Positions 13,179 through 25,728 of a stretch of 32,298 nucleotides of DNA are shown one piece after another. The translations under genes and the position numbers were made by a program. The number at the start of each line of letters is the position of its first letter. Within the stretch, counting starts at the first letter, position 1. This stretch comes from a virus: IMG/VR virus record IMGVR_UViG_3300027791_000081, positions 1 through 32,298 of that record; one strand, given 5' to 3'. The notes below the pieces were generated by a model, which made no database searches, was not told the DNA's origin, and worked only from the letters and a program-made list of their open reading frames with translations.

Positions 13179-13186
13179 CAAAGATA
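13179..13186 (-). promoter_or_regulatory. Bacteroidetes-type -7 box TATCTTTG
   Basis: On the minus strand the sequence TATCTTTG fits TAnnTTTG exactly. It ends 17 nt before the ATG at 13161, in the 33-nt gap after the tail gene ending at 13195. A convincing TTG -33 element is not seen. It would drive the GNAT-like gene through the genes ending at 140, with a leader of roughly ten bases. Confidence 0.6.
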
Positions 13187-13194
13187 GTGAATTT

Positions 13195-14010
13195 CTATGG
13201 AAAACTTTTCATCACACTACTACCTACAGAAAACAGTTCTACAGGATCTGTTGAGTCATTTTCTAATTTAAATTCTAAGTAATAGCCTCTTGCACCATGT
13301 GACTCAGCTACAGCATTTTTTATAAAAAGAATAAATTGTCCAACTGTAGGAACAGTTCCACCACCGACTGTTGTATCTACAGTAACAGTAGTGTTTGTTT
13401 TAGCAGTTACTTGACCTACTAAAACAGGAGCTGCGGTAGCAACACCAGCATTTAAAGTTGTTGCATATACTGTATCTCCAATATTTAATAATGATCCTAT
13501 AGAGCCTGCGAATTCAATTATAGTTGCGGTGTTTGGACCACTTACTCCAGTACATGCACCAATACCATTTGCTGACCTTTGTGAAAAATTAACAGTGCCT
13601 GCGTTTGTTCTAATAAAACTAAACCACTCGCCTTCTTTTTCTACAAAATAAGTGTCAAGCATTGATCCTGGGTTACCATCAGTTAAATCAGTTAATAACC
13701 TTGTACACTCCCATCTCGCTTCATTACTGTCTGCGACAGTTGTGTTTGCTTCATAAGAAAGAGTTTTAAATAATTTTATACTTAATGTTGGTTCAGGATT
13801 AAACACACTTGTAATAGTAGCATTGCTAAACTGACCATAATAAGTGTTACGTTGTGCGCCTGTGTTGTGTCTAAATAAATTACCTCCTTTAAACGTGTAA
13901 AAAAAACTATTCATTCCTATCATAAATTCAGGAGTAAATGAATAAAACGATGGCCATCCTTTAGATGATTCGCTGTATGATAGTGTATAAGGTTCGCAAT
14001 TTAAAGCCAT
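13195..14010 (-). CDS. Tail tip/nozzle-associated structural protein
   Basis: 271 residues. The N-terminal half carries a pattern I associate with tail-nozzle proteins of Bacteroidetes podoviruses: KGWPSFYSFTPEFMIGMNS, then FYTFKGGNLFRHN, then RNTYYG, then VFNPEPTLSIKLFKTLSYE. The C-terminal half (about residues 145-232) contains an apparently inserted beta-rich domain with Gly/Thr/Val repeats and an IGDTVYATT turn, similar in style to one in the 325-residue adaptor encoded at 20781-21758. No membrane segments. In related phages this pattern can be part of one large stabilisation protein; here it is a separate gene downstream of the 1594-residue protein. It is the last gene of the tail block, followed by a new promoter box. 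Confidence 0.6.
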   Translation of the reverse strand: MALNCEPYTLSYSESSKGWPSFYSFTPEFMIGMNSFFYTFKGGNLFRHNTGAQRNTYYGQFSNATITSVFNPEPTLSIKLFKTLSYEANTTVADSNEARWECTRLLTDLTDGNPGSMLDTYFVEKEGEWFSFIRTNAGTVNFSQRSANGIGACTGVSGPNTATIIEFAGSIGSLLNIGDTVYATTLNAGVATAAPVLVGQVTAKTNTTVTVDTTVGGGTVPTVGQFILFIKNAVAESHGARGYYLEFKLENDSTDPVELFSVGSSVMKSFP

Positions 14011-15070: not shown

Positions 15071-15304
15071 TTATGGGCATGTAGTTACCGCAGTAACTAA
15101 GCCAAATTGATTTACTGTTATATAATCTGTTGCACTTATTTTATATAAGCCTTGTCCTAATTGAGTTCCTACAGCCCCATCAGTTGATGAATATACAAAA
15201 TCTCCATATTCAGGCAGTGTACTACTTCCTGAATGAGAGTATGTTATATTCAAAGGTTGACCACATACGTCTGGTTCTGATTGAAACACTGAACTACCTT
15301 GGAA
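15071..15304 (-). repeat. Tail module copy: C-terminus of the 1594-aa protein
   Basis: The last 77 residues, starting FQGSSVFQSE and ending VTTCP, resemble the end of the 342-residue protein encoded next. Both show FQxS, then Cys, a Tyr-bearing strand, a P..G[DN][FW]V[FY] turn, and a final strand closing with Cys. Confidence 0.5.
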
Positions 15305-18300
15305 TGCTGTAAAAGTAAAAGTACATTCACAACATGCAGCAGCAGCTGAACTTGCATCAAAACAAAATTCTTGGCAACTTGTTAGTCTATAATCATATAT
15401 TAAATACAAATATTGATTTGCTAACGGTAATGACAAACTATTAACAGTGGTTTGATAAAGTCCAGCTGAAGGACTTATTACAGATCCATTAGCTACTGTA
15501 GTAGCCGCAGTTAACAAAGCAGCTATATCAGGTTGATTATTACTGTACAATGTATTACTTGATAGATATTTAAAATTATCATCAGGATACGCCCAGTCAT
15601 AAGTATCAAAATTTATTTTATTAGAACGGATTGTTAAATCAATACCATCGTAAGGGAAAACACCTAAAGATCTTACACCAGTTTGAACATCATATGAAGA
15701 AGCTATTACATTGCTTGGACCAAATTCTGCTAAGTCAGAATCAATTGGACTAATATTAATGGTGTCTTCCCATAAATACTCTACATGAATAAATTTACCG
15801 TTTTGTTCTGGCGAATTTAATACCACTTTTACAACAGTTATATTTACTGGCTCAACACATGCAGCTGTTAAAGTAAATGATGCTGTTGAAATTGCTGTAA
15901 ATGTTACTGTAGCATTAGATGGACTATTTAAAGTTTTATTAAAAGTAAAAGTTCCTGATCCTGTTAAAGTAGAGCTTGTAGTTGTAACACCATTCCATAA
16001 CACAGAAATAGTTATTGATCCAGATGTAATGTTATAATTAAAGTTAGCATCTCCAATCAAAGCACCATAATTTATAACACTAACAATAGCATTTGCAGCT
16101 CCTGTTGCTAACCCATTTCTTTGTAGTCTATAACCACATTGAACAATTTCTGGTGGTAATGGAATTTTATTACAATTCATACCTAAAACATATTCGTCCA
16201 TATAAGGATCATAACCACCTAATTTTTGTGTTTGAATAGACTCATAAAATTCATCTCTAAACCAAGAACGCATTCCCATAGCTGAAACAATCTCTAAAGA
16301 ATCGTTATTTCTACTTGTGCCTCTTAATTTTATTACAGCACCTCTTTTTACATCAGTAAAAAACATATCATAACCATGAGCAACAAAACTTTCTGGATTA
16401 TAACTAATACCATATTCTTCAATACGAGCTATTTGTGTTCCTAATATTTCAGGAACTGAAGCAATAACACCACCTCCTGTACTATCACTAATTAAATTTT
16501 TACTTGCTAATATGTAAGTAATTCTATCTTCTTGTAAAACTAAAATATCTGTTTCTCTTGAGTGCATTTTTTGTATTGGACCAAAAGAAGTTTCACAATC
16601 TTTAAAGTTTATTAATCCTAAATTAAATTCATTAAGATTATTTACACCGCTATTACTACTAAAAATACCACTATAAGTAATACCTTCAAATCTATCAGCT
16701 TCTTTAAAATCTTGATTAGAAACTGCTAAAGTTCTTTGACCTAATTGAAATGGTCTACCCACTAATCTGTCTTTTATTTTAAAACTTTCTACTCCATTAC
16801 CAAAAGAAAAACAATCTCTAAAGTTTAAATTAACTATAGCATCTTGAACAGCAGTTTGATTTTGATCTCCTAACTCACTGTTAATACCAGACAAATGAAA
16901 ACCATCTGGTTGTGAAATTTCAAAAGATTGAGACGAGTCATAATACAATTCTGCATTTGCATCAGCAGGTTCTGTTTCAAAAACTATTAATGTATTTGCT
17001 CTAAAAACTATTAATTCAATTTCTATATCTGAAGTTCTATCTGATTGAGGCCATGGTCTATTACACCCTTTAACTCCAGAAGAAACTCCTAAATATAAAG
17101 GATCATTTACACCCTGAGCTGCATCTTGTATCCATTGAAAAGTTACTTCCCATGTTTGACAAGCTACATTATTTGCTACGCCACTTGTAGGCCCACCTGG
17201 ACCTGGAGCAGCTAAATTTGAATTATTTATTATAGTTGTCTCATCAGCAACATTACCTGGTTGTGCAAGACTTGGGTTTATATTGTCTCCAACCCACCAT
17301 CTTCTCATATCAGTATAATCTCTACTGGCAACGTATTCTTGTTCCCATTGCCATTTTATTTCTTGACAGCTACCTCCGTTAAAAGTGTCATTACGAAACA
17401 TTTCTGATTTTATTCTAATTACAGAACCACCTGGAACTGTGTAATTAGTTGTAACCCCAGTAGTATCGTCTGTTGTAAAACAAGGGTATCCTATTTTTCT
17501 TCCATTTGTACAGCCTCTTGCGTCACTCCTTCTTCTTTTGTTTCCAAGTTCTATTAAAGAATCATCAGGAATAACAATATCAAAGTTTTGATTTTTAATT
17601 TGCATGTATAACCCTTTCAATTGAAAAGATCCATCTCCAAATTCATTATCATCATCTAAAAAATTTGTAGGCTCTGCACTTACTTCTAAAACCTCAACTG
17701 TTTCTACTCTACTTAAAGGCCCACTAACATCAGCTTTAACAACTAATTGATCTCCTTTTCCTACTTTATTTGCGTTATCACCCTGAAGTTGAAAAAACAC
17801 CATATTATCACTTGGTCTAACATAATAGAAATTTGAAAATATAGTTTCATATCCTGCCTTGCTTGGCTTAACTACAAACTTATATCGTTCTGCCCAATAG
17901 GGCGCTCTTGAAGATACAGCTACTTGTATACTATTTGCAGTAACACTATTACCAGGCTCTACATATACAGTATTGTACTGAGAAACCAAAACAGTAGAAG
18001 ACCTTCCGTATTCATCACTATATACAATTCCAGTTTCATAATCACGATCACTATGTAAACTCCCTGTATCTAAGTCTGTTGTAAAAGCTGCTTGTACAGA
18101 TATAAATCTAAAATATTCATATAAATTAGTTGTTACAGGAACAGCAGGATCTGTTGTGTCTATAACCTGGTATTGCATTGCAATAGCCTGAATGTCACAA
18201 GTGTTTGATCCTGGACTAAAATTTGAAAGCCTAAATCCTTGTTGAATAGTAGAATCTGTAATACTACTATTAAATTTTGAAAAAGGAAAATTACCAAGTG

Positions 18301-19855
18301 CTGGGGAAGAAGGTTCATTATTAAAAAAATCTGTTAATGAATTTCCTTGATCAGCTGTAGCTAAAGGTTCAAAATTAGTATTAAGAATTGTTCCTATGCG
18401 TTCTGCAAATAAAGGACTATTAAAAAAGTCATACGGACTTGAATAATCTTGATCTAATGTAATGTTTATAGATACAGTAAACGGTTGATTTTTAAAATCT
18501 ATATTAGCAGTGGCTTCATCAGAATTTGTTGGAGAAAAAACTCTTTTTTCACTGTCAAAATTAAATGTAATTCCTATTAAAGAATTAGTTTTTAATTTAT
18601 CTGCAATTGAAGTAAAGTCTATTGTAACTTTAGAGTTAACAATTGTTTCACTTTGAGCTGGATCAATTGTATAGTTTATTCCAGCAGTTAAAAGACCTAA
18701 TGGTAATTCTGCAAAACCTAAAAGAGTATTAATTAAACTTGTGTTGTAGTCAATAGCAATTGTATTTCCATTTGCATCAGATCTTGTAATGTTATAACCA
18801 TCTACGTAGTTACCGTACATTAAACGATTGCCTTGTATTGTTTGAGCTTTTGCTAATCTTGGTACATTATCATATTGTCTTAATAATTCATCATTACCTA
18901 AAACAGTATATATTTTATTATTAGTAAACGTATAAGTTTTTGTAGTATCATTGGCCCAACCAAAATCTTCTTTTTTAAATCTTTCAATTACATTTACTGA
19001 AGTTGAATTTGTGTCTTTAAATAATAAATCAACTTCTTTTACTCTTGAACTTCCTGTAGAAAACTTAACTTCAATGCCATTGTACAAGTTTTGCATTCCA
19101 TCATTACAATAATTTTTTGTACTGAACTGAAAAGGTCTTGGAACAAAAGCTGGATTAGTAAACAAAGAAGTTGCACTATACTGCCCATCTTCATATCTAT
19201 ATCTATAAGCAAAACATAAAAATCTATTTTCTATATAATTTTCATTTCCTGCAATATTTAAAAAAGACAATAAAGGTGCAGGTAATGGTTTATTCGTTCC
19301 AACTACATTTTCAAACCCAGGAGGTTTAACAATTACCGATATATCTTCTTCTATAATTTGATCAAAACCACCAATAGGTTCTGCATAACTTCTGGTTATA
19401 TTTATTGTTCTTGGAGGATTTATGTCATCTGTCCAAAAAAGCAAATCTTCAATTAAATCAACTCCTGTAATTAAATACAAAGGATCAAAATTTAAAAGTG
19501 CTGTAGTAACTACATGATAATTAACAATTTGAGTAGTTGTATTATATGAAATTATTAAATCAAGTCCATTTTTTACAGTAAAATTTTTATCATGTATAAA
19601 CCAATATATATTTTCTCTTACTCCATCTTCATAAGCACCTATACATACAGCGGTAGAACTTAAATTAGTTCCATCAAACTGTAGAGTAGTTAACTGCTCA
19701 TTCCCTTTTGAGTTCTCTACTGCACCTATCTCTGTTGCTTCCGTAGAACCTAAACGGACATTTTGAGCATCAACATATTCACCTGGTGGAAGAAGTCTTT
19801 CATCCACAGATTTATTCATTCTACCTGCAATAAAATTTGTTGTAGTTATTGGCAT
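15071..19855 (-). CDS. Large tail stabilisation/nozzle protein (P22 gp10 / T7 gp12-like position)
   Basis: 1594 residues. The N-terminus has the signature DERLLPPGEYVDAQN (residues 18-32), which I associate with tail stabilisation proteins of crAss-like and related podoviruses. Beta-rich repeats follow, in keeping with a propeller-like nozzle. Further patterns: YSATSLFTNPAF; YETGIVYSDEYGR; and, around residues 1100-1260, MHSRETDILVLQEDRITYIL, EEYGISYNPESF, KRGAVIKLRG and GGYDPYMDEYVLGMN. The remaining 330 residues are a Ser/Thr/Asn-rich extension with clustered cysteines (CQEFCF, ACCECTF) and a terminal module shared with the next gene, so they are probably surface exposed. It lies 1 nt after the 307-residue adaptor. 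The family is known to form the distal tail; the exact fold is inferred. Confidence 0.75.
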   Translation of the reverse strand: MPITTTNFIAGRMNKSVDERLLPPGEYVDAQNVRLGSTEATEIGAVENSKGNEQLTTLQFDGTNLSSTAVCIGAYEDGVRENIYWFIHDKNFTVKNGLDLIISYNTTTQIVNYHVVTTALLNFDPLYLITGVDLIEDLLFWTDDINPPRTINITRSYAEPIGGFDQIIEEDISVIVKPPGFENVVGTNKPLPAPLLSFLNIAGNENYIENRFLCFAYRYRYEDGQYSATSLFTNPAFVPRPFQFSTKNYCNDGMQNLYNGIEVKFSTGSSRVKEVDLLFKDTNSTSVNVIERFKKEDFGWANDTTKTYTFTNNKIYTVLGNDELLRQYDNVPRLAKAQTIQGNRLMYGNYVDGYNITRSDANGNTIAIDYNTSLINTLLGFAELPLGLLTAGINYTIDPAQSETIVNSKVTIDFTSIADKLKTNSLIGITFNFDSEKRVFSPTNSDEATANIDFKNQPFTVSINITLDQDYSSPYDFFNSPLFAERIGTILNTNFEPLATADQGNSLTDFFNNEPSSPALGNFPFSKFNSSITDSTIQQGFRLSNFSPGSNTCDIQAIAMQYQVIDTTDPAVPVTTNLYEYFRFISVQAAFTTDLDTGSLHSDRDYETGIVYSDEYGRSSTVLVSQYNTVYVEPGNSVTANSIQVAVSSRAPYWAERYKFVVKPSKAGYETIFSNFYYVRPSDNMVFFQLQGDNANKVGKGDQLVVKADVSGPLSRVETVEVLEVSAEPTNFLDDDNEFGDGSFQLKGLYMQIKNQNFDIVIPDDSLIELGNKRRRSDARGCTNGRKIGYPCFTTDDTTGVTTNYTVPGGSVIRIKSEMFRNDTFNGGSCQEIKWQWEQEYVASRDYTDMRRWWVGDNINPSLAQPGNVADETTIINNSNLAAPGPGGPTSGVANNVACQTWEVTFQWIQDAAQGVNDPLYLGVSSGVKGCNRPWPQSDRTSDIEIELIVFRANTLIVFETEPADANAELYYDSSQSFEISQPDGFHLSGINSELGDQNQTAVQDAIVNLNFRDCFSFGNGVESFKIKDRLVGRPFQLGQRTLAVSNQDFKEADRFEGITYSGIFSSNSGVNNLNEFNLGLINFKDCETSFGPIQKMHSRETDILVLQEDRITYILASKNLISDSTGGGVIASVPEILGTQIARIEEYGISYNPESFVAHGYDMFFTDVKRGAVIKLRGTSRNNDSLEIVSAMGMRSWFRDEFYESIQTQKLGGYDPYMDEYVLGMNCNKIPLPPEIVQCGYRLQRNGLATGAANAIVSVINYGALIGDANFNYNITSGSITISVLWNGVTTTSSTLTGSGTFTFNKTLNSPSNATVTFTAISTASFTLTAACVEPVNITVVKVVLNSPEQNGKFIHVEYLWEDTINISPIDSDLAEFGPSNVIASSYDVQTGVRSLGVFPYDGIDLTIRSNKINFDTYDWAYPDDNFKYLSSNTLYSNNQPDIAALLTAATTVANGSVISPSAGLYQTTVNSLSLPLANQYLYLIYDYRLTSCQEFCFDASSAAAACCECTFTFTAFQGSSVFQSEPDVCGQPLNITYSHSGSSTLPEYGDFVYSSTDGAVGTQLGQGLYKISATDYITVNQFGLVTAVTTCP

Positions 19856-20780: not shown

Positions 20781-21758
20781 CTATCCTTGTATTTGTTGTT
20801 CTGCTACTAATTCTTGTGTGCCAAAATTATAGACATCTGCTTCTCTTATTTCTATACCTACATACTGACATATCTTTGCTATTAATGAAGGCTCATCAGA
20901 TAATGGTAATTCAAAATCTTGATAATCAGCCGCAGTAGGATCAAATAAAGGTTCTCCACCCACCAAAGAAGCATAAGTCCAGTTTGGTGTTAAAGGATAT
21001 CTAACGTACTGAGAAGTTAATTGACCAATTTTATTAATTGTAATTGGAAAAGCTTCTGCAACTAATGCATTTTGTGTATATGCAGGATAACTAATATTTG
21101 GTTTTGTTAAAATAGAATTATTTAACATTGTTATTTTACTTTGCGCTACTCTTTCTGCTTCAATAATATCATTAGCTGAATAGATGTTATAAGTTTTTCC
21201 TATATTATCCCATACGGATGTTCCAAACGTTGGAAACACTAAAATATTAGTTGCACTAACTACTTGTGAAACAGTGGTGTTATAAACCACTCCTCCTGTA
21301 ATAGTAGAAACTATATCTCCAACAGCCACTCCAGCCACAATAAAGTCTGCTGTAGTGTCGTTTACCGCTGTAGAACCGCCATTGGTCGAAGTTGTTACTC
21401 CTGCCGCTAATTCTTTAGTAAAGACCATCATCTTATTAATTAAATAATAATCAGCTGGCAATGTATATAAATTAGTTTGAATGTTTCCTGATTGAGTTGT
21501 AGCAGAATTAAATAAAGGTCCGTTAACATAGAACGTGTCTATAACTTCTAAAAGTCCTTTTGATATATCAGCATACCCTGTGCCTGATGCACGACCAATT
21601 TCTTTTACTATTTGATTATTGTACGCATAAAAATAATCTTCAAACATATCCATTTGAGACTGCGCACAATAAAGATTGAAATCTTGTGGAGATATGTAAC
21701 CGTAATTATTTTTGTTTGCTATTGCTAATACAGTATTTCGTACTTCGTTTATTGGCAT
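20781..21758 (-). CDS. Head-tail connector/ring-like structural protein
   Basis: 325 residues. The N-terminal helical part (INEVRNTVLAIANKNNYG, SPQDFNLYCAQSQMDMFEDY) leads to TNLYTLPADYYLINKMMVF, a pattern like the adaptor strand of the neighbouring 307-residue protein. Residues about 118-185 look like an inserted Thr/Val/Gly-rich beta domain (VAVGDIVSTITGG). The C-terminus has a helical ending SLIAKICQYVGIEIREADVY. It is the first gene of the tail transcript: a TAnnTTTG box ends 15 nt before the ATG and a terminator lies just upstream of that. Probably a connector ring between portal and tail tube; exact equivalence unknown. Confidence 0.55.
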   Translation of the reverse strand: MPINEVRNTVLAIANKNNYGYISPQDFNLYCAQSQMDMFEDYFYAYNNQIVKEIGRASGTGYADISKGLLEVIDTFYVNGPLFNSATTQSGNIQTNLYTLPADYYLINKMMVFTKELAAGVTTSTNGGSTAVNDTTADFIVAGVAVGDIVSTITGGVVYNTTVSQVVSATNILVFPTFGTSVWDNIGKTYNIYSANDIIEAERVAQSKITMLNNSILTKPNISYPAYTQNALVAEAFPITINKIGQLTSQYVRYPLTPNWTYASLVGGEPLFDPTAADYQDFELPLSDEPSLIAKICQYVGIEIREADVYNFGTQELVAEQQIQG

Positions 21759-21773
21759 AATTAATTCTTTTTA

Positions 21774-21781
21774 CAAATATA
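21774..21781 (-). promoter_or_regulatory. Bacteroidetes-type -7 box TATATTTG
   Basis: On the minus strand TATATTTG matches TAnnTTTG and ends 15 nt before the ATG at 21758, which would leave a leader of about ten bases. It starts 2 nt after the eight-U run of the upstream terminator, so any -33 contact would fall inside the hairpin. It would drive the tail operon (21758 to 13195). Confidence 0.65.
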
Positions 21782-21783
21782 AC

Positions 21784-21818
21784 AAAAAAAAAGAGGTTAC
21801 TTTTTTTTAGTAACCTCT
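21784..21818 (-). terminator. Intrinsic terminator after the 92-aa gene
   Basis: Perfect 9-bp stem (21792-21800 with 21810-21818; AGAGGTTAC on the plus strand) around a 9-nt A/T loop. On the minus strand it is followed by eight U (21791-21784; the first is adjacent to the stem). It lies 24 nt past the stop codon at 21842. The plus-strand side has no comparable T run, so it acts on minus-strand transcripts. Confidence 0.85.
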
Positions 21819-21841
21819 CTTTAATTGTTTAATTAATGCCC

Positions 21842-22120
21842 TTATGCATTAACGATACTTGTTACAGCTTTTGGAAGACTTACCTCGAAAAAAGGATTCT
21901 GCCAAGATGTAGCTAATGCTATTTCCATATTATCTAATATAGAATTGTAAACATCATGAGCTACTTGAGCTGCTGTTGTAACTGTTGTAGTAGTTCCATC
22001 AACATAATCAATTGTAACTGTTACTGCTGTAGCTGTTGCTGTAGCAATAGCTTTGACTCCGTCAAGACTAATCAATTGACCAGTAATAGGAGCATTTGTG
22101 ATTTTAAGAAATTTTGCCAT
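21842..22120 (-). CDS. Small Thr/Ala/Val-rich protein, 92 aa, in its own transcription unit (decoration-protein candidate)
   Basis: 92 residues starting MAKFLKITNAPITGQL. An upstream in-frame ATG at 22177 is rejected because that extension would run through the promoter box and into the terminator of the previous gene; the chosen start has an A-rich leader. The protein has an N-terminal beta pattern (ITGQLISLDGVKAIA), a hydrophobic Thr/Val/Ala centre (TATATAVTVTIDYVDGTTTTVTTAAQ, named here as residues about 28-53 in two parts of TATATAVTVT and DGTTTTVTTA), and a helical C-terminal part (NSILDNMEIALATS). It is flanked by promoter boxes and strong terminators on both sides. This suggests high, separate expression, as for a decoration or other minor capsid protein. 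Function unproven. Confidence 0.7.
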   Translation of the reverse strand: MAKFLKITNAPITGQLISLDGVKAIATATATAVTVTIDYVDGTTTTVTTAAQVAHDVYNSILDNMEIALATSWQNPFFEVSLPKAVTSIVNA

Positions 22121-22153
22121 TTTATAAAAAGTTTTTAATGGGTTAATAAAGTA

Positions 22154-22161
22154 CAAAGATA
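22154..22161 (-). promoter_or_regulatory. Bacteroidetes-type -7 box TATCTTTG
   Basis: On the minus strand TATCTTTG matches TAnnTTTG. It lies 33 nt before the ATG at 22120 and 2 nt after the eight-U run of the preceding terminator. It would drive the 92-residue protein gene alone, which ends at its own terminator. Its position decides the start codon of that gene. Confidence 0.65.
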
Positions 22162-22163
22162 GC

Positions 22164-22192
22164 AAAAAAAAAGCCACCCTTTTAAGGTAGCT
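22164..22192 (-). terminator. Intrinsic terminator after the 251-aa gene
   Basis: Hairpin 22172-22192: nine pairs with a 3-nt loop. Two positions are G.U wobbles in the minus-strand RNA but C/A mismatches in the plus-strand RNA, so the structure favours minus-strand transcripts. It is followed by eight U (22171-22164). It ends the unit containing the gene at 22215-22970. Confidence 0.8.
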
Positions 22193-22990: not shown

Positions 22991-23031
22991 TTTATAAAAA
23001 AATAAATACCCTCGTCATTATAACGAGGGTA
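22991..23031 (-). terminator. Terminator-like hairpin after the major capsid gene
   Basis: Perfect 9-bp stem (23007-23015 with 23023-23031, core ACCCTCGT) with a 7-nt loop. On the minus strand it is followed by an imperfect U tract (UUUAUUUUUUUAU). It begins 18 nt after the capsid stop. The interrupted tract suggests partial termination, which would give strong capsid expression and weaker expression of the 251-residue protein. Confidence 0.75.
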
Positions 23032-25691: not shown

Positions 25692-25699
25692 CAAAGTTA
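25692..25699 (-). promoter_or_regulatory. Bacteroidetes-type -7 box TAACTTTG
   Basis: On the minus strand TAACTTTG matches TAnnTTTG and ends 16 nt before the ATG at 25675, in the 53-nt gap after the portal gene. It would drive scaffold and capsid separately from the packaging genes. A -33 TTG is not evident. Confidence 0.6.
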
Positions 25700-25728
25700 A
25701 TACTAATTTAATTATAATTTTAAGCCTT

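Follow-up and report, generated by a model that had tools for sequence, protein, structure and literature searches.

Probable terminator-promoter composites at both ends of a small late gene in a virus related to marine flavophages

At both ends of a gene for a 92-aa protein, the minus strand of a viral DNA carries a GC-rich hairpin, a run of nine T (T9), two bases and a TAnnTTTG element. The DNA is the IMG/VR record IMGVR_UViG_3300027791_000081 (positions 1 to 32,298; 32,298 nt), hereafter the window. Each composite most probably combines an intrinsic terminator with a host sigma-ABfr promoter on shared DNA, a reading based on sequence, conservation, covariation, position and controls. The stop signal of one mRNA and the start signal of the next would, on the best reading, be packed into about 50 bases. 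Evolution has maintained this fusion at set positions among the virion structural genes of a widespread family of marine viruses that infect Flavobacteria.

We infer termination, initiation by host RNA polymerase (RNAP), separate dosing of the units and a promoter role for the loop. The RNA of the upstream unit would fold into the hairpin and stop in the U-tract, and the same T-tract would serve as the AT-rich -18 region of the next promoter, with TAnnTTTG two bases on. The A-rich loop would supply the upstream element that plain late promoters write as GCYTAAAA, and the next transcript would start about 14-23 bp past the stop. Within the late structural operon, the 92-aa gene would be transcribed as a unit of its own, and the next, tail-side unit (the 325-aa gene, the 307-aa gene and the muzzle gene) would receive its own start. 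Separate starts would allow the level of each unit to be set separately. It is likely, as the earlier note had proposed, that the composite insulates one unit while restarting the next. Crass-like phages are believed to rely on host RNAP for transcription of their late genes (PMC10136315), which would fit the TAnnTTTG promoters.

Architecture of the composites and their genomic setting

The fused pattern that the earlier note had described at both ends of the 92-aa gene is present there on the minus strand (Table 1). Upstream of the gene, positions 22192-22154 read AGCTACCTTAAAAGGGTGGCT, the T run, GC and TATCTTTG; downstream, positions 21822-21774 read AAAGAGAGGTTACT-A8-GTAACCTC, the T run, GT and TATATTTG. 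Two details of that description require revision. A T run stands at both sites, but each comprises nine T rather than eight, the first of which can pair in the stem. The G that follows the run in both composites of the window is not general, with G, A, T or C found in relatives. The gap between the T run and TAnnTTTG varies from 2 to 4 nt in relatives, and the distance from the stem's last G/C to TAnnTTTG is 10-13 nt throughout the counted cases, most often 11 nt; this latter distance is the preserved quantity. The composite geometry places the -33 region of each promoter inside the hairpin DNA, which supports the overlap claimed earlier, and places the predicted 3' ends approximately 14-23 nt before the predicted start.

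Table 1. Coordinates of the two composites and of related features in the window
Feature	Positions	Strand	Remarks
Plain late promoter before the 382-aa gene, GGCTTAAAA-18 nt-TAACTTTG	25692..25726	-	Noncoding DNA, no terminator
Terminator after the gene in the major capsid position, no TAnnTTTG promoter	23007..23031	-	Natural contrast
Predicted terminator hairpin 5' of the 92-aa gene, AGCTACCTT-AAA-AGGGTGGCT	22172..22192	-	With T run -12.4 kcal/mol; covarying stem in relatives
Proposed upstream promoter element CCTTAAAA, loop and upper stem	22180..22187	-	18 nt before the -7 element
T9, putative U-tract and AT-rich -18 region of the promoter	22164..22172	-	Sequence
-7 element TATCTTTG, sigma-ABfr type	22154..22161	-	Predicted start ~22149
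92-aa gene between both composites	21842..22120	-	Confident AlphaFold model, no PDB match
Predicted terminator hairpin 5' of the 325-aa gene	21788..21822	-	Folded with T run -16.4 kcal/mol
A8 loop, proposed upstream promoter element	21801..21808	-	Ends 19 nt before the -7 element
T9, putative U-tract and -18 AT-rich region of the downstream composite	21784..21792	-	Sequence
-7 element TATATTTG	21774..21781	-	Predicted start ~21769
Gene for the 325-aa virion structural protein (phrog_14543)	20781..21758	-	First gene of the unit that the downstream composite would restart

Every large gene in the window is encoded on the minus strand, and together they make up a late structural region. Its order is terminase large subunit, portal, 382 aa, a 486-aa virion protein in the capsid position, 251 aa and 92 aa, followed by 325 aa (phrog_14543), 307 aa, muzzle (PF25731), 342 aa, 271 aa (PF25729) and further structural genes. 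The crassvirus muzzle domains PF25731 and PF25729 both score above cut-off in this region, a feature of Crassvirales-like phages. The muzzle N-terminal region and C-terminal domain match two separate genes (13195-14010 and 15071-19855, minus strand) with the 342-aa gene between them. The named phages nearest to the window are MW202828, Maribacter phage Panino, the Flavobacterium elemo phages and Cellulophaga phages such as phi38:1; no long DNA match to the window was found in the phage collection.

The strong terminator after the capsid-position gene lacks a TAnnTTTG promoter, so that expression of the 251-aa gene would depend on read-through or on a start elsewhere. The corresponding terminator of MW202828 and elemo carries a fused promoter.

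Conservation, covariation and controls

Relatives of the 92-aa gene from marine flavophages were fetched twice from IMG/VR, and counts were made on distinct flanks; given that these relatives are not independent, such counts make the evidence look stronger than it is. Of 52 distinct downstream flanks, 49 carry the fused composite. Of 45 distinct upstream flanks, 27 carry it, 14 have the promoter and no terminator, and 4 lack an exact TAnnTTTG. Conservation in relatives, which the earlier note had named as a test that could refute its reading, was thus found at both sites. Across 28 aligned downstream elements, T8 and TATnTTTG are invariant and the stem bases vary. As the MAFFT alignment misregisters stems, covariation was tested by swapping arms rather than by counting pairs, combining the 5' arm of one relative with the 3' arm of another. 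Own arms paired better than swapped arms at the downstream site in 40 of 40 cases (mean pairing score 24.1 versus 14.2) and at the upstream site in 22 of 23 (19.9 versus 13.0). This stem covariation indicates that the RNA structure of the hairpin is under selection.

The two parts of the upstream composite do not evolve in step. Of 74 relatives, 73 retain its -7 element, ending in G or A, whether or not the terminator is there, and on a tree of the 74 92-aa genes the upstream terminator changes state 7-8 times, at least 4-5 of them on supported branches. The terminator has been gained or lost while the promoter stays, and promoter and terminator are therefore separable at this site.

A similar arrangement extends to more distant phages. 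Before the phrog_14543 homologue, phi38:1 (KC821614), Elemovirus (NC_055853) and MW202828 carry the same succession of hairpin, T-tract and TAnnTTTG, and they share the order portal, capsid-position gene, 251, 325, 307 and muzzle. Unlike the window, they have no match to the 92-aa gene, a gap of 3-6 nt before the promoter element, and mostly no A-rich loop. Maribacter phage Panino likewise lacks the 92-aa gene; neither of its promoters is fused, and no composite precedes its phrog_14543 homologue. In the simplest history, the composite before phrog_14543 would be old, and the 92-aa gene would be a later arrival that brought a promoter and, in many lineages, also a terminator of its own.

The association is well beyond chance expectation. 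The pattern T8GNTAnnTTTG occurs twice in the window, both times flanking the 92-aa gene, against 0.00 expected from 100 dinucleotide shuffles. On its own, the element TAnnTTTG is about as frequent in the window as expected (58 versus 55.2), and the information therefore sits in the combination. A scan for sigma-70 type promoters was uninformative, with 115 against 95.5 expected. Among 157 distinct late-strand terminators of the family, 117 are followed by TAnnTTTG at 1-8 nt from the last T, usually at 2-3 nt with a mode of 2 nt, as compared with 1 for the reversed motif; the 40 without a fused promoter are almost all the terminator after the capsid-position gene. Among the exact matches listed from IMG/VR, a hairpin stands directly before the T run in 58 of 112 distinct cases, versus 17 of 104 listed for a scrambled -7 element. 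Of these 58 listed hairpin matches, 53 lie in contigs with genes of this family, 29 of them directly before a phrog_14543 gene and 8 before a 92-aa gene, and two further listed matches (L003 and L010) precede divergent phrog_14543 genes. A chance or compositional origin could appeal to the AT-rich phage DNA and to the chance-level frequency of TAnnTTTG alone; it is contradicted by the shuffles, the family terminator counts, the IMG/VR controls, the covariation and the positional conservation in relatives, and was rejected as exceedingly improbable. Deep conservation, stem covariation and controls thus bear out the earlier claim that the repeated spacing reflects selection.

Flavobacteriaceae sequences were considered as a source of a generic arrangement. 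In two genomes (400 kb), 2 of 64 terminators carry such a promoter, and across 60 genomes the exact pattern shows no excess (15 versus 18 for the reversed control); a generic host arrangement was accordingly rejected for the exact spacing. One host terminator in a Flavobacteriaceae chromosome sample (L437) has T9 running straight into TATATTTG, a host fusion without a gap. A search of the region against Rfam returned nothing near the gathering score, its weak matches being terminator look-alikes.

Promoter elements and the terminator loop

Promoters of Flavobacterium johnsoniae have the consensus TAHHTTTG at -12 to -5, with the transcript start 4-5 nt after it; they show only a trace of a -33 motif and more pronounced AT-rich motifs at -18 and -28 (PMC6847099). 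The -7 elements of the composites match TAHHTTTG, and T9 covers -23 to -15, the site of the AT-rich -18 motif, where the T fraction of fused composites is 0.95. At both composites, TTTG is not present at -33, and an A-run is found there instead. Since PMC6847099 itself finds the -33 element weak, TTTG at that position is not a firm defining feature. In comparison with sigma-ABfr promoters of Bacteroidota (PMC6847099), the composites thus share the -7 element (TATC or TATA followed by TTTG), the lack of G at its two variable bases and the AT-rich -18 region. They differ in that their -18 region is the terminator U-tract, their -28 region is a GC-rich stem, and the A-run of the loop takes the place of TTTG at -33.

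The terminator loop lies at about -39 to -31, and we lean, by a small degree, towards the reading that it has a second role as an upstream promoter element in this phage group. Before the 382-aa gene, the plain late promoter carries a GCYTAAAA-like motif (25718-25726, minus strand) that is kept in relatives and could be a phage-specific late promoter element. Among 43 distinct relatives, 8 have GCTTAA (0.2 expected) and 13 have CTAAAA (1.9 expected); in 27, a C[CT]?TRAA motif stands before the -7 element with its end at a distance of 19-20 nt. The loop of the upstream composite reads CCTTAAAA-18 nt-TATCTTTG, matching the plain late promoter in both motif and spacing, and a GCYTAAA-type motif at that spacing is found in 11 of 26 distinct upstream composites, with 0.6 expected. 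At the place of the loop element, the downstream composite has A7-A8 in 26 of 31 distinct relatives. The exact GCYTAAA motif occurs in 0 of 31 downstream composites, so that an equation of this motif with the A8 loop fails and only the position of the A-run agrees. AAAA is present in 65 of 100 fused hairpins versus 2 of 31 unfused terminators of the same phages. The loop motif was identified post hoc, and deeper relatives are mostly without it; elemo, phi38:1 and one MW202828 composite have no A element. In a small host sample of 46 candidate promoters, no A-run was found at the position of the loop element. Elsewhere in the window, TATCTTTG recurs at 13179-13186 (minus strand) in a 33-nt gap before a 135-aa gene, and an AAAA terminates 19 nt upstream, within the last part of the preceding gene.

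Alternative explanations, known systems and the 92-aa gene

Once stopped at an intrinsic terminator, RNAP of E. coli often remains bound to the DNA and starts again from the closest promoter (PMC6978380, PMC11347151). By analogy, an RNAP that terminates in the T-tract could remain bound and reinitiate a few bases ahead, coupling the output of the units, a possibility that the earlier note had raised. Recycling of this kind is known for E. coli, phage late genes probably use host RNAP, and the distance from terminator to promoter is almost the shortest possible. However, recycling acts over hundreds of bases and needs no fixed 11-nt gap, which recycling alone therefore does not explain; the upstream terminator comes and goes beside a kept promoter (the 7-8 changes on the tree), so that coupling is not obligatory there; and the evidence comes from the RNAP of E. 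coli, not of Bacteroidota. We regard such a hand-off as plausible in mechanism but, on balance, unlikely, and base sharing between the two signals explains the fixed gap better than recycling. An extended version, in which one stretch of about 50 bp would be read three ways, as a hairpin stop, as a loop element for a phage-modified or phage-activated host RNAP and as a U-tract spacer, with the terminating RNAP handed over, is similarly doubtful.

Interference between the two signals is also conceivable, such that a paused RNAP would cover the promoter and an open complex would cover the hairpin DNA and block RNAP, producing a switch or dampener. The predicted 3' ends, only about 14-23 nt before the predicted start, are compatible with this; nevertheless, the same would follow passively from compact packing, and a selected role of this kind appears improbable. 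The hairpin might otherwise be mainly a stabilizer or processing site of the mRNA 3' end, or a DNA element for a phage protein, rather than a terminator. A8 loops are indeed unusual for terminators, and the unfused ones in these phages mostly lack such A-runs, yet a GC-rich stem with T9 immediately behind it is the classical terminator arrangement, and the terminator after the capsid gene is built in that way without a promoter. This explanation is very unlikely.

The preferred reading, an intrinsic terminator and a sigma-ABfr promoter sharing DNA, can be placed beside known systems. With intrinsic (Rho-independent) terminators the composites share a GC-rich stem followed directly by T9, and they differ from the usual ones in an A-rich loop (A4 to A8) and a promoter element 2-3 nt after the U-tract. 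As in RNAP-recycling terminator-promoter pairs (PMC6978380, PMC11347151), the promoter lies within recycling distance of the terminator; unlike those pairs, which extend up to about 1 kb, the distance is near zero and bases are shared. Literature searches on overlapping terminators and promoters in phages yielded no account of the present composite among the open-access papers covered, which is no proof of its absence. The composites offer a natural, evolutionarily replicated system with dozens of variants, in which the same promoter occurs with and without a terminator. Such variants are suited to asking whether terminator-promoter distance matters for RNAP recycling, which has been demonstrated in vitro for E. 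coli. The findings also suggest that late promoters of abundant marine flavophages contain a previously unrecognized upstream element, and they provide a compact insulator-promoter part for Bacteroidota genetics.

Morons of lambdoid phages are single genes with their own promoter and terminator that are absent from related phages. The 92-aa gene is likewise single, with its own predicted promoter and terminator, and is absent from this junction in MW202828, elemo and phi38:1. Unlike lambdoid morons, it is retained by more than 100 relatives, always at a single site among the late structural genes, and we do not file it as a moron. Its place and separate promoter suggest that it encodes an abundant virion protein. 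The protein resembles only unnamed viral proteins, and the gene has no match among the GenBank phages in the collection. AlphaFold modeling gave a pLDDT of 55.6 with close relatives only and of 89.4 with distant relatives, a confident in silico fold for which no PDB match was found below E 1.5. Divergent small proteins starting with M-x-K-F, some of them encoded after the same composite, appear to belong with the 92-aa protein.

The leader of the 92-aa gene (TTTATTAACCCATTAAAAACTTTTTATAAA, 22121-22149, minus strand) is nearly unchanged in relatives, even where the preceding hairpin is lost, and may be a translation enhancer. In four relatives (L260, L261, L263 and L264), the leader of the 92-aa homologue shows the reversed order, a promoter followed by a GC-rich hairpin and a short T run, resembling an attenuator.
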